Positions 3,204-12,427 of a stretch of 22,797 bases of DNA are shown piece after piece. The notes beneath the pieces are model-generated. The model was not told the origin of the DNA, searched no databases, and saw only the letters and a list, made by a program, of their open reading frames with translations. Numbering within the stretch: position 1 is the first letter of the stretch; each line of letters opens with the position of its first letter. The position numbers and the translations under genes are program-made. Source of the DNA: a virus; the IMG/VR virus record IMGVR_UViG_3300031565_000404, positions 1 through 22,797 of that record. One strand, given 5' to 3'.

Positions 3204-3461
3204 ATGGCATTAGAGAAACCATTTATCCACTCATTAACTGCAGAAGGAACGCCTGACCCAGTTAATTTTAATGACTGTTTTACTTTTAAGAAGTTTGACT
3301 TGCCACAACAAGGAAAAACAGCATCAGCTCGGTTTCATTTAGTTTTTAGCCGCGACGAAAACAGTTCAAGCCCAAAAGAGATAGTATGGAAATATAAAAA
3401 CCAATGCGACAGAAACGCTGAGTACACAAGGGTACTTGATTTAATAAGTAAACCTATTTAA
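3204..3461 (+). CDS. Small paralogue A (85 aa), possible virion or abundant phage protein
   Basis: This 85-residue soluble protein is a clear paralogue of the next gene. Both start with a short Met-Ala or Met-Ser segment and then KPxIHS, a Gly-x-x-x-PVN segment, a Phe-x-Lys segment, a central strand ending VFS-x-D, and a K-x-x-x-W-x-Y segment before a C-terminal helix. The pattern suggests a compact mainly beta fold. No family is recognised. It lies immediately before the virion genes in a two-gene unit with its own promoter and a strong terminator, which suggests high-level expression, for example as a minor capsid or decoration protein. That role is inference only. Confidence 0.65.
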   Translation: MALEKPFIHSLTAEGTPDPVNFNDCFTFKKFDLPQQGKTASARFHLVFSRDENSSSPKEIVWKYKNQCDRNAEYTRVLDLISKPI

Positions 3462-3483: not shown

Positions 3484-3744
3484 ATGAGTGCATTAGTAAA
3501 ACCAATGATCCATAGCTCAAGAGCTACAGGAGATGTTCAGCCAGTAAATGCTGAAAAAATTATTAATTTCGTAAAGCTAACCATCCCACCAACACCAAAC
3601 TCAGTAAAGACTGTTTACAGAATTGTGTTTAGCATGGATGCTGGTATGAATGTAAAACAAGTTACTTGGGAGTACGCAACATCAATATTGATGGATAACG
3701 ACTTCACAGCTATAGTAGGCTTAGTATCTACAGTAACGCCGTAA
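3484..3744 (+). CDS. Small paralogue B (86 aa)
   Basis: This is the second member of the tandem pair, starting 22 bases after paralogue A with an A-rich leader. Shared features are KPMIHS near residue 6, GDVQPVN, FVKLTIPP, a strand with YRIVFSMDAG, VTWEY, and a C-terminal DFTAIVGLVS helix. Identity to paralogue A looks modest, with spacing nearly preserved, so the duplication is not recent. There are no membrane segments. The intrinsic terminator at 3763-3793 closes the unit. The function is unknown. The conserved Trp-x-Tyr and IHS positions are the likeliest structural or functional residues. Confidence 0.65.
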   Translation: MSALVKPMIHSSRATGDVQPVNAEKIINFVKLTIPPTPNSVKTVYRIVFSMDAGMNVKQVTWEYATSILMDNDFTAIVGLVSTVTP

Positions 3745-3762
3745 GAAAAACTACACCTAACT

Positions 3763-3793
3763 AAAAAAACCTCCTCTAACCGGAGGTTTTTTT
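3763..3793 (+). terminator. Intrinsic terminator after the paralogue pair
   Basis: CCTCC (3770-3774) pairs with GGAGG (3782-3786) around a 7-base loop. The stem is extended by seven As upstream and seven Ts downstream. This is a textbook rho-independent terminator that isolates the pair from the tmRNA gene. Confidence 0.85.
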
Positions 3794-3810: not shown

Positions 3811-3819
3811 TATATTTGC
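3811..3819 (+). promoter_or_regulatory. -7 box of the tmRNA gene
   Basis: TATATTTGC is a perfect Bacteroidota -7 box. It predicts a start near 3824-3826, just before the first base-paired segment of the tmRNA. No clear -33 TTTG is visible, because the upstream sequence is the preceding terminator's T/A run. Confidence 0.65.
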
Positions 3820-3960
3820 ACTGTTAACCTGTTTATTGACAGATTGTTTGGACGAGGGTTCGAATCCCTCCGACTCCACTGATAGTAAGAATATATGGGG
3901 TCGTTTTTTGGTTTTGACTGCAAGTATGTGGTAAGCGCGAAGTGGTTGACATCCTTAACA

Positions 3961-4014
3961 GGAAAATTAGTAAATTTATTCGGAAACTATTCTCCACTAA
4001 AAGCGGTAGCATAG
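3961..4014 (+). other. Putative proteolysis-tag reading frame of the tmRNA
   Basis: This 18-codon frame reads GKLVNLFGNYSPLKAVA and ends in TAG. The resume codon is uncertain. GGA (3961), GTA (3970) or AAT (3973) are candidates. The AAT option follows TTAGTA and resembles the usual context. The Ala-Val-Ala end fits the small hydrophobic ending of SsrA tags, although most tags end Ala-Ala. One other frame is also open, but it has no tag-like ending. Confidence 0.6.
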
Positions 4015-4021
4015 TTTCGAG

Positions 4022-4059
4022 AAAGAAGGTGCGAAGCACAGTAACACCTTCTTTTTTTT
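4022..4059 (+). terminator. Intrinsic terminator of the tmRNA gene
   Basis: GAAGGTG (4025-4031) pairs with CACCTTC (4045-4051), flanked by As upstream and followed by eight Ts (4052-4059). With the box at 3811 it defines a self-contained RNA gene of about 235 nt. Confidence 0.85.
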
Positions 4060-7575: not shown

Positions 7576-9813
7576 ATGTTCTACTTTTCAAACGAAGCAG
7601 TTAATAAACCAAATAGACTAACTACAAAGGATAAGGACGCTGCTTATCACTTGCAGTATGGGAAATTCACCCTTACAGATGCAAGCACATCTTTGCACCA
7701 GGAATTTATAGCTAAAACAAAGCTAAATAAAAACTTCTATAAAGGTAATCAATGGACCTTCGATGAAGATGTTGAGGCTTTTTTAATGGATGCTACCAAG
7801 CAAACAAGAAATAGAATAAAGATTGTACACAACCTTATTCGCCCAATGATAGAGCAGTTTAGAGGTAACTCTATACGCTTATCAATAAATGCAAGTGCAA
7901 AAAGTGTATCTAAAAAAGCTATAAATAGAAGAGAGCGTTCTCTTGGGGAAAAATTACTAAAGACAAGGGTTGCCATGGAGTTTCCTGCTCTTGGTAGGCT
8001 AATGAAAGAAGCTGATAAATCTATTGGAGATAGCGAGAATGAAACTATTGAAATACACGAGAACCTATATGTAGATTCTTTTGTTAAAACCATAAACAGC
8101 CTTATTCAGTATGTTAAAAACCTAAATAATCTTGACGAAAAACAGACAAGGGTTGCTCAAAATCTTGGTTTATCTGGTCTTGCTGTAATAGAGGGGTTTG
8201 AACATGGTGGACACCAAAGATATGATATAGTTGAGTCCGAAGAGTTTTTCTTTGACCGTTCAGCGAGAGAGTACGACCTTACTGATGCTGATTATATGGG
8301 TAAATGCGTTGGAATGTTGCCTACAGATATTTTCGAAGGATATCAAAACATAGATGATGACAAAAGGGAAGCAATAGAGTCCTACGTTTCTGAAAGACAA
8401 TCAAATCTAAACAACTCTGTAAATGGTGAAACTGTAAATGTTGGATCAACAAAAATACCAGTTTGCCACTCTTACTGGAGAGACGAAGAGAAGAAAGATG
8501 CCGGATATGTATATGATGAATTTGGATATCCATACCTTATATATTTAGGAGAGACAGAAAACCCACGAACAGGAGAACCATATACTGAGGAAGATTTAAT
8601 AGAACCACCTGCCTCACCGAAAAACGAAAGATTATTCAAGGGAAAAAAGAAAAGGTCTATGTATATAGATGTTCTTAGATTCTGTGTATTCATACCGTTT
8701 GGAGCTATAGGAAACCCAACCATGGGAAAAGATAAGATCCCAGACATTGTTCTTGATTACGGTTTACACCCTTACCAAGAGACTGAATGGTTAGACTTAT
8801 CAAATGTTAAATTCCCTTTCAAATGCTACACATGGGGATATGTTGATGGAGAGATAATGAGTCCAGTAGATGATGCTATAAATCCACAGAGATTTATAAA
8901 TAGAGTATTGTCTGTGGCAGAATCACAAATAAACCAATCTGGAGGTTCGAGTGTAGTTGTTGATAAAGATGCTGTTGATGGTCCTGACGGGGAAGATGCT
9001 CTTTATAGAGATATTGACCAAGGAAAACCAATAACACTAAGAACAAAAGGAAGAGGAATACCAAACTCTGTAGGTGTTTATGATGCCACCCCAAAACAAG
9101 GGACTTATAGATTGTTTGATATCATACCAGTAATGGAGGGTATCATACAGAAAAACACAGGTGTAAATGAGGGATTAAAAGGAGAAAGCACAGGTTCAGA
9201 CCAACTTGTAGGAGTAACACAGTTGCTTATACAAAGAGGTTCGTTAATGCAGGAGCCATTCTATAATGCTTTAACACAAGTATTCTTGCAGGTTCACCAG
9301 CATACTGCAACGGTAGCTAAAAGAATGTACATAGATAACGAGAGAGAACTTGCTATTGCTGTTGGGGATGATGGTGTTGAAATACTTGAATTAAGCAAAG
9401 AGATGCGTAATGAGGACTTTAGAACTTTTGTTACGAGAGAAAATGCGGAAGAATCTTTATTTGCTCAGGGAGACCAAATGCTTAATGTATTCCTTCAAAC
9501 AGGAATGATAGATGAAACTATATATGCTAACCTATACTCAAGATCTACGCCTGCCGACGTAGCTATGGCTCTTAGAGAAAATTCCGGAAAGAAAATAGAG
9601 CTACAAAGACAGCAAGCAAAACAAGCACAGGCTGACCAACAAATAGCAGCACAACAAATAGCACAGCAAGAAGCTGCTAACGCTCAATTTATAGAGAACG
9701 AAAGAAAGGGTAGAACCATAGAAAAAATGGAGGACCACTCTAACGAAATGGAAAAAATAGCATTAAAAGGAGAGATTGATGCAATGAATAAAACAAAAAA
9801 CGCAACATTATAG
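7576..9813 (+). CDS. Portal protein
   Basis: This would form the dodecameric portal vertex through which DNA enters and leaves the capsid. The 745-residue protein has the length and layout of crAss-like portals. An N-terminal segment contains RNRIKIVHNLIRPMIEQF (about 79-96). A long clip/wing region follows (TRVAQNLGLSGLAVIEGF). A core contains SVVVDKDAVDGPDGED and the helix region NTGVNEGLKGESTGSDQ near residues 530-546. The last 70 residues are a Gln/Ala-rich coiled coil (QQAKQAQADQQIAAQQIAQQ), probably the barrel. The assignment rests on pattern and order (TerL, coupled gene, portal), not on a search. Confidence 0.85.
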   Translation: MFYFSNEAVNKPNRLTTKDKDAAYHLQYGKFTLTDASTSLHQEFIAKTKLNKNFYKGNQWTFDEDVEAFLMDATKQTRNRIKIVHNLIRPMIEQFRGNSIRLSINASAKSVSKKAINRRERSLGEKLLKTRVAMEFPALGRLMKEADKSIGDSENETIEIHENLYVDSFVKTINSLIQYVKNLNNLDEKQTRVAQNLGLSGLAVIEGFEHGGHQRYDIVESEEFFFDRSAREYDLTDADYMGKCVGMLPTDIFEGYQNIDDDKREAIESYVSERQSNLNNSVNGETVNVGSTKIPVCHSYWRDEEKKDAGYVYDEFGYPYLIYLGETENPRTGEPYTEEDLIEPPASPKNERLFKGKKKRSMYIDVLRFCVFIPFGAIGNPTMGKDKIPDIVLDYGLHPYQETEWLDLSNVKFPFKCYTWGYVDGEIMSPVDDAINPQRFINRVLSVAESQINQSGGSSVVVDKDAVDGPDGEDALYRDIDQGKPITLRTKGRGIPNSVGVYDATPKQGTYRLFDIIPVMEGIIQKNTGVNEGLKGESTGSDQLVGVTQLLIQRGSLMQEPFYNALTQVFLQVHQHTATVAKRMYIDNERELAIAVGDDGVEILELSKEMRNEDFRTFVTRENAEESLFAQGDQMLNVFLQTGMIDETIYANLYSRSTPADVAMALRENSGKKIELQRQQAKQAQADQQIAAQQIAQQEAANAQFIENERKGRTIEKMEDHSNEMEKIALKGEIDAMNKTKNATL

Positions 9814-11149: not shown

Positions 11150-12427
11150 ATGAGTGCACAAACTTATGTACCTGGTGTTGGAAATTCACCTTTCGGGAAT
11201 TTAAACACTAACCCAGAAGGGTCGAATTACGCAGTTGATTCAGGCTTTTCACCACAAGAATCAATTTTAATTCAAAAAGCTGTAAAACAAGCAATTTTTG
11301 ACGCTGCTCCAGCTCAATACAATGCTTTGAAGCTTTTGAATATGAAACCTTACAAGGATAAAAACCTTGACGAGTTTTCTTATTTAGAGAAGACTTTTGG
11401 TAGAAGTCCTATTGAGGCTACTGCTATCGTTGCTGCTCAAGCTGGTGCTGCTGGTGTTTCACAAACACAAACTATCCCATTAACGGCGGCTTCTATGAAT
11501 CACGTTTCTGAGGATTTAATTATTATCTATCCTGACAACAGTAAAGCTGTTATTACTCAGGTTGGTCCTGGTAATCAAATTATCGTATCTTCACAAACAA
11601 GTGATGGTTTATCTGCTATCGCAGCTAACGATATTTTTGCTTTCCAATCAACTATCGAGTCTGACGGAATGGATGTGTTCAAAAACTACGAAAGAATGGA
11701 ATTTGTTGAGAGATACAACTACATCCAATTCTTCATGAGAGCTCAAAGATGGGCGAGAGTAGAGATGCAAAAACACATCAACGCAGGTACTACTGATTAC
11801 CTTACTCACGATAAACAACACAAATTAAACCAGTTAAGAGTAGATTTCTTCAACTCTTACTTCAATGGTCAAAGAGGTGAGTTTCCGTTGTCTGGTGGTA
11901 GAGTAGCTAAAGCTATGGGTGGTGTTTATCCTACTATGGTTGCTGCAGGTTCAGCAAGTGCTAACCCGACTGTAGCTGGTTTACAAGCTGCTTTCGAAAC
12001 ATTGGCTTTCCAAACAAACTTCAAGGTTGAAGGTGGTACTCGTTTCATTTATGGAACAGATGAGATTCTTAATGAGTTCTCTAAAATCTACAAACAACCA
12101 GGATTGAGATATTCTCCAAACGATGAGGTTGCTAACTTGAAACTGAGAAGAATCGAGGTAGGAACAATGAACTTCGTTTTAGTTCCTTGTGAATTATTTA
12201 GAGAAGAGTCTTGTTTCCCTGCTGAATGGAAAAGAAAAATCTTGGTTTTAGATCAAGAGGCTATCTCTCCAGTAAAAATGAAAGGAATTGACGCTCTTGA
12301 AATGGGACAAACTCTTAACAGAGGTAAGAACGGAACAAGAGAAAACTACATCGATTACTGGTGTGGTGGTCAGTTGAGCTTAGAGTTCAACAATCCAGTA
12401 GGATGTTTCTGGATTGATGTTCAGTAG
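11150..12427 (+). CDS. Major capsid protein, HK97-fold crAss-like type
   Basis: This is the shell subunit of the icosahedral head. The 425-residue protein has an Asn/Gly-rich N-arm, a helix ESILIQKAVKQAIFDAAP, and a small-residue region AIVAAQAGAAGVSQTQTIPL. A long spine-like helix follows (YNYIQFFMRAQRWARVEMQK), then an A-domain region around GGTRFIYGTDEILNEFSKI, and a C-terminus GGQLSLEFNNPVGCFWIDVQ. This arrangement resembles capsid proteins of crAss-like phages. Codon choice differs from neighbours, with more C-ending Asn, Phe, Tyr and Ile codons, as expected for the most abundant virion protein. An 8-bp hairpin follows the stop codon. Confidence 0.85.
   Translation: MSAQTYVPGVGNSPFGNLNTNPEGSNYAVDSGFSPQESILIQKAVKQAIFDAAPAQYNALKLLNMKPYKDKNLDEFSYLEKTFGRSPIEATAIVAAQAGAAGVSQTQTIPLTAASMNHVSEDLIIIYPDNSKAVITQVGPGNQIIVSSQTSDGLSAIAANDIFAFQSTIESDGMDVFKNYERMEFVERYNYIQFFMRAQRWARVEMQKHINAGTTDYLTHDKQHKLNQLRVDFFNSYFNGQRGEFPLSGGRVAKAMGGVYPTMVAAGSASANPTVAGLQAAFETLAFQTNFKVEGGTRFIYGTDEILNEFSKIYKQPGLRYSPNDEVANLKLRRIEVGTMNFVLVPCELFREESCFPAEWKRKILVLDQEAISPVKMKGIDALEMGQTLNRGKNGTRENYIDYWCGGQLSLEFNNPVGCFWIDVQ

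Follow-up and report, generated by a model that had tools for sequence, protein, structure and literature searches.

A compact, circularly permuted tmRNA gene in a phage that probably infects Bacteroidota

Permuted tmRNA genes, in which the 3' part of the molecule is encoded ahead of the 5' part, are established in three bacterial lineages, the alphaproteobacteria, betaproteobacteria and cyanobacteria. A first-pass annotation of the locus described here proposed such a gene, with the alanine identity pair, in a phage of Bacteroidota type, which raises the questions of whether the locus encodes a working two-piece tmRNA and where a gene of this kind in such a phage would come from. We analyzed the locus in its window, by which we mean the complete 22,797-base virus record, probably a fragment of a virus genome. 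We are highly confident that it is a phage-borne, circularly permuted ssrA gene encoding a compact two-piece tmRNA that would serve trans-translation during infection together with the host's SmpB.

The window sequence places the T arm, with the 3' acceptor strand, at 3850-3878, ahead of the 5' acceptor strand at 3897-3903, and the acceptor stem formed by GGGGTCG at 3897-3903 and CGACTCC at 3871-3877 has seven of seven pairs, including G3-U70. The first-pass coordinates for the promoter box, T arm, discriminator A3878, linker, acceptor, D segment, tag frame and terminator were all correct, and the features of the locus, with their basis in brackets, are as follows:

3770..3793, plus strand: terminator of the upstream gene, dividing that gene from the tmRNA unit (sequence)
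3811..3818, plus strand: Bacteroidota-type -7 promoter box TATATTTG (TAnnTTTG) (sequence; motif enriched in the window)
3822..3829, plus strand: P2 outer helix, 5' strand, TGTTAACC, pairing with 3944-3951 (two-piece RNA cofold; pairing in homologues)
3844..3847, plus strand: P2 inner strand TTGT, pairing with GCAA at 3920-3923 (pair counts in 10 phage sequences; partner-swap test)
3850..3878, plus strand: core of the acceptor piece, GGACGAGGGTTCGAATCCCTCCGACTCCA, consisting of GGACG, the T stem-loop, CGACTCC and discriminator A3878 (RF04321 match; sequence)
3879..3896, plus strand: linker CTGATAGTAAGAATATAT, 18 nt, presumably removed on processing (length variable among homologues)
3897..3918, plus strand: start of the coding piece, with 5' acceptor GGGGTCG (3897-3903) and D segment TTTTTTGGTTTTGAC (3904-3918) (pairing; covariation)
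3920..3923, plus strand: P2 inner helix, 3' strand GCAA (pair counts; partner-swap test)
3944..3951, plus strand: P2 outer helix, 3' strand GGTTGACA (cofold; register in homologues; sequence)
3961..4014, plus strand: tag frame (G)KLVNLFGNYSPLKAVA plus stop, that is, GKLVNLFGNYSPLKAVA and stop, with GGA as the putative resume codon (same frame open in L005 and L026)
4023..4059, plus strand: hairpin and T run, a terminator and the probable 3' end of the coding piece (sequence; hairpin in the cofold MFE)

Flanked by two terminator-like hairpins, the tmRNA unit is its own transcription unit; upstream of it, no TTTG -33 box matching the -7 box was found. The gene does not itself supply the CCA that would follow A3878. 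The pseudoknots that usually flank the tag, PK1 and PK2, could not be made out by inspection, and the RF04321 alignment has deletions at the PK1 stem; P2 leaves little space before the resume codon, and beyond the stop there is just the terminator hairpin. Because neither pseudoknot is recognisable, the tmRNA, about 220 nt when mature, looks like a compact form. Ahead of the unit, the window carries two small genes in tandem that resemble each other in sequence, at 3204-3461 (MALEKPFIHSLTAEG...) and 3484-3744 (MSALVKPMIHSSRATG...), neither of which had a family match.

The Rfam model RF04321 (tmRNA_permuted) matches the window at 3819-4014 over its full length (model positions 1-213; 52.1 bits, E 9e-8), above its gathering score of 47 bits, while with the standard tmRNA model RF00023 the score is no more than 24.5 bits and derives from the T arm. 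No match to the lineage-specific models RF01849, RF01850 or RF01851 is listed for the window, overlapping lower-scoring matches from the same clan being omitted. Both Rfam and ARAGORN had been suggested as checks on the first-pass reading; the former bore it out, but ARAGORN called no tmRNA on the window. A loose permuted pattern, defined as a T arm plus a 7-bp acceptor that includes G3-U70, has a single instance in the window, and 3 of 200 dinucleotide shuffles also contain it; this comparison counts the T arm and acceptor pattern alone, before the D segment, tag and homologues. The permuted arrangement by itself is unlikely to be a product of chance but is not decisive; what decides the matter is the homologues.

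As to the host, the annotation's view of a Bacteroidota-type phage is backed by a Kordia MAG contig (Bacteroidota, Flavobacteriia; possibly misbinned), which has a terminase of 58% identity with a portal gene after it, and by TAnnTTTG boxes, of which the window has 47 versus 32.9 expected and which precede several genes (before 4653, 9866 and 20082). The phage probably infects Bacteroidota. Searches of the phage collection did not place it in a named phage group, with no near match for the whole window, no match for the portal and only ~25% identity for the terminase. Family matches are to SU10_MCP for the major capsid protein (11150-12427; E 5e-7) and to P22_portal for the portal (7576-9813); a small protein on the minus strand at 2321-2602 has, by eye, a SEC-C-like pattern, GRNDVCPCG...KKCC, and no Pfam match.

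The Kordia MAG itself carries a standard tmRNA (140.3 bits). RF04321 exceeds its cut-off in just one of 395 Bacteroidota genomes (G238). The permuted tmRNA there, a related one with tag GKVIQMNNAPVRLAA, lies within phage-like sequence on a 1.6-Mb contig, with genes of phage-type DNA polymerase, helicase, DnaB-like and Sak4-like kinds nearby; elsewhere this genome has a standard tmRNA (160.3 bits). The next-best nine RF04321 matches in these genomes are standard tmRNAs by ARAGORN, and a strict permuted-gene pattern, itself narrow, had no match over the genome collection. Judging from the sampled genomes, the tmRNAs of Bacteroidota themselves are standard one-piece molecules.

Relatives of the phage were found through terminase homology and not through the RNA. 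Two of them (L002 and L003) have a terminase 100% identical to that of the window and the same tmRNA gene; in two others, L005 and L026, terminase identity is 73% each, and a permuted tmRNA lies at the same place, ~0.6-0.7 kb before the terminase. The latter two score 43.6 and 46.7 bits with RF04321, slightly under the cut-off of 47; L026 scores 32.3 bits with the beta_tmRNA model, below its cut-off of 84, and weak matches to this model also occur in some relatives. ARAGORN made no tmRNA call in the close relatives of the window. The acceptors are GGGGTCG/CGACTCC in the window, GGGGATA/TATCTCC in L005 and GGGGTTG/CAACTCC in L026, changed on both sides with G3-U70 constant, so that the identification as a permuted tmRNA with the alanine identity pair is backed by compensatory changes of the kind the annotation had proposed to look for in related phages, as well as by the covariance model. 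The linker, 18 nt in the window, measures 53 and 130 nt in these two relatives and 16-214 nt among phage homologues, as expected of a discarded segment. The tags, GKLVNLFGNYSPLKAVA in the window, GKVINLHKEIPQLQAAA in L005 and GKLINLFESPFGGARAAA in L026, are similar peptides in a frame that stays open, including through an in-frame length change, with the alanine-rich end and stop kept.

A CGAAG...AGTA motif in the loop of the 3' hairpin is likewise kept while the stem changes (window 4023-4052, L005 ~2048-2078, L026 ~2010-2045), which suggests a role beyond termination. Counterparts of the two tandem small genes also precede the tmRNA in L005. The gene seems to come and go within the phage group, since no RF04321 match was found in L023 (terminase 58%; 10 kb upstream covered) or L029 (49%; 3.5 kb upstream covered); in six other relatives (L004, L006, L007, L024, L027 and L028) the upstream DNA is too short to judge its presence. 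L023, the phage-like Kordia MAG contig, has at 1294-1345 on its minus strand a candidate type-P1 twister ribozyme (40.2 bits versus a threshold of 67.2, E 2.4e-5).

Searching annotated phages at the DNA level with the window tmRNA returned 'SsrA' features in cr114_1, cr50_1, cr125_1, cr10_1, cr60_1 and MA9V-3. These genes are annotated in GenBank, the T arm lies at the gene start in all six, and ARAGORN calls them permuted. The belief expressed in the first-pass annotation that no permuted tmRNA was known from Bacteroidota phages was therefore mistaken, as crAss-like phages and Chryseobacterium phage MA9V-3 have annotated ones and IMG/VR holds more. A further permuted tmRNA, in cr53_1 (50.3 bits), has neither an annotation nor an ARAGORN call, and the Cellulophaga phages Calle_1 and phi14:2 have standard tmRNAs. 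The crAss-like genes (cr114_1, cr50_1, cr125_1, cr10_1, cr60_1) share with the window gene the permuted order, a Gly resume codon, the T arm and acceptor pattern and a setting in Bacteroidota phages, but differ in their tags (GNNFVTDYT...), their linkers of 99-214 nt and, for several, adjoining tRNAs or RAGATH RNAs. The MA9V-3 gene (PV245944), from a phage with a cultured Bacteroidota host, is permuted (by ARAGORN; RF04321 64.7 bits) and has a tag, GNVIDINKYVAKLEVAA, that resembles that of the window; it differs in its 60-nt linker. RAGATH-9, RAGATH-20 and RAGATH-22 RNAs (122-156 bits) occur just upstream of the permuted tmRNA, up to ~400 nt, in the crAss-like phages L012, L013, L014 and L017.

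IMG/VR was surveyed with a T-arm pattern scan followed by a strict rule applied to the matches listed, among which are further permuted tmRNA genes. Many of those with TTTTGAC D segments share, among the matches listed, a tag of the form [GSV]K-[VLT]-[VIT]-[NQ]-[LMF]...P-[LV]-R-[AM]-[VA]-A, examples being GKVVQMYNPSLRAVA, GKTINFSNAPLRAVA and SKVINFFPAPLRAVA (by sequence reading). Other permuted genes among these matches have the ANDxxxALAA tags typical of bacterial tmRNAs and probably belong to phages of other hosts.

The published record touches on these genes in part. The RF04321 model was built from alphaproteobacterial, betaproteobacterial and cyanobacterial genes in a study that lists 79 unique phage tmRNAs and whose main text does not take up those of Bacteroidota phages (PMC11915505). 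Another study tallies 53 phage tmRNAs of the two-piece kind, of which 50 are marine or aquatic, and the 53 may include some of the Bacteroidota phages considered here (PMC9004378). A tmRNA has been reported for MA9V-3, in tmRNA passages that leave its permutation unmentioned (PMC13120357), and one for Calle (PMC8776804). In the texts of articles we found no description of permuted tmRNAs of crAss-like or other Bacteroidetes phages, individually or as a lineage. OM43 phage Melnitz and further marine phages have two-piece tmRNAs that are also phage-borne permuted ssrA genes, but of alphaproteobacterial type, with Proteobacteria hosts and a tie to a glutamine riboswitch (PMC9004378).

Covariation was assessed in 10 sequences not chosen by pairing, namely the window, L005, L026, MA9V-3 and six crAss-like phage genes; the IMG/VR set was selected by acceptor pairing, and its acceptor pairing was therefore excluded as evidence. 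Across the 10 sequences, 92.4% of pair cells hold standard pairs, 18 cells show double-sided changes (shuffled mean 5.0; slid registers near zero), and the covariation score is 0.295 versus 0.097 shuffled, while sliding the registers by 1-3 columns lowers pairing to 50-57%. The acceptor is 100% paired in 10 of 10, with three of its seven pairs changed on both sides and G3-U70 invariant. The inner P2 helix is paired in 74% of cells, and a partner-swap permutation gave p ~1e-4 over 31 phage-set sequences whose relatedness was not removed. The outer P2 helix (3822-3829/3944-3951) is present in the predicted two-piece structure, and its register is kept in L005 and L026 with 2 compensated pairs, a comparison of three sequences only. 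Relative to shuffled sequences, the two-piece cofold energy has a z of about -3.5 in the window, about -3.4 in L026 and -0.4 (no better than shuffled) in L005. In several phage homologues UAAC precedes and GUUA follows the resume codon (window ~3953-3975); the two could pair into a hairpin whose loop contains this codon, but the arrangement may reflect chance or mere sequence conservation before the codon.

By analogy with known tmRNA biology, a precursor would be transcribed from the gene's own promoter, RNase P would cut it before G3897, and 3' processing with CCA addition after A3878 would remove the linker, leaving two pieces held together by the acceptor stem and P2. The host alanyl-tRNA synthetase would then charge the molecule with alanine via G3-U70, and with the help of the host's SmpB and EF-Tu it would reach stalled ribosomes and append the tag (Ala)GKLVNLFGNYSPLKAVA. 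Among the proteins of the window that were scanned, none was an SmpB. One might guess that the phage benefits by keeping ribosomes free as mRNAs degrade during infection, and by using a tag of its own.

tmRNA genes frequently serve phages as integration sites, and pieces of these genes are often carried in phage genomes, as is established for such sites and discussed in PMC9004378; the locus could in principle be a non-working remnant of a host tmRNA gene from such an attachment site (an attP-type fragment). Such a fragment would have only the 3' part, whereas the present locus continues, in permuted order, into the 5' half; both the acceptor pairing and the tag frame persist through divergence, with compensatory changes, and the sampled Bacteroidota tmRNAs are standard, all of which makes this origin extremely improbable. 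We also consider it very unlikely that the RNA is a decoy that titrates host SmpB or stalled ribosomes with no tagging, as has been proposed for mycobacteriophage DS6A, whose tmRNA consists of the tRNA-like domain only (PMC4131195; PMC11915505). The small size of the window RNA and its want of clear pseudoknots would suit a decoy, but the relatives keep a similar tag frame, with its alanine-rich end and stop, through an in-frame change of length.

How a working two-piece tmRNA came to these phages is a separate matter, and the two origins considered here are each compatible with that reading or an extension of it. Acquisition from alphaproteobacteria, betaproteobacteria or cyanobacteria, the lineages in which permuted genes are established, followed by retention in Bacteroidota phages, has in our estimate a little less than an even chance. 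Like the window gene, the permuted tmRNAs behind RF04321 have the order 3' part, linker, 5' part, a G3-U70 acceptor, a T arm, P2 and a tag frame; the window gene differs from them in its Bacteroidota-type phage setting, Gly resume codon, unusual tag, unrecognisable PK1 and PK2, unencoded CCA and mature length of about 220 nt. Some weak beta_tmRNA matches in relatives favor acquisition, and acquisition across host groups has been argued for phage Melnitz (PMC9004378), but other permuted phage genes among the matches listed have ANDxxxALAA tags, unlike the GK-V-I-N/Q... and GNNFVTDYT... types seen here with their Gly resume codon. A rather unlikely, though not negligible, alternative is that the genes form a Bacteroidota-phage lineage of their own, permuted independently of the alphaproteobacterial, betaproteobacterial and cyanobacterial ones and poor in pseudoknots, whose conserved tag (GKVIN/Q...PLRAVA) would give tagged proteins a fate unlike that conferred by the host tag.

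Swapped-order tmRNAs are thus already known and annotated in other Bacteroidota phages, and the window gene adds a compact new member to this family. Since ARAGORN misses some permuted genes, phage tmRNA counts based on it are too low. Phages of Bacteroidota, whose own tmRNA is one-piece, repeatedly have the two-piece form with tags of their own, offering a natural test of whether infection involves a separate phage system for ribosome rescue and tagging, and of the source of permuted tmRNAs.
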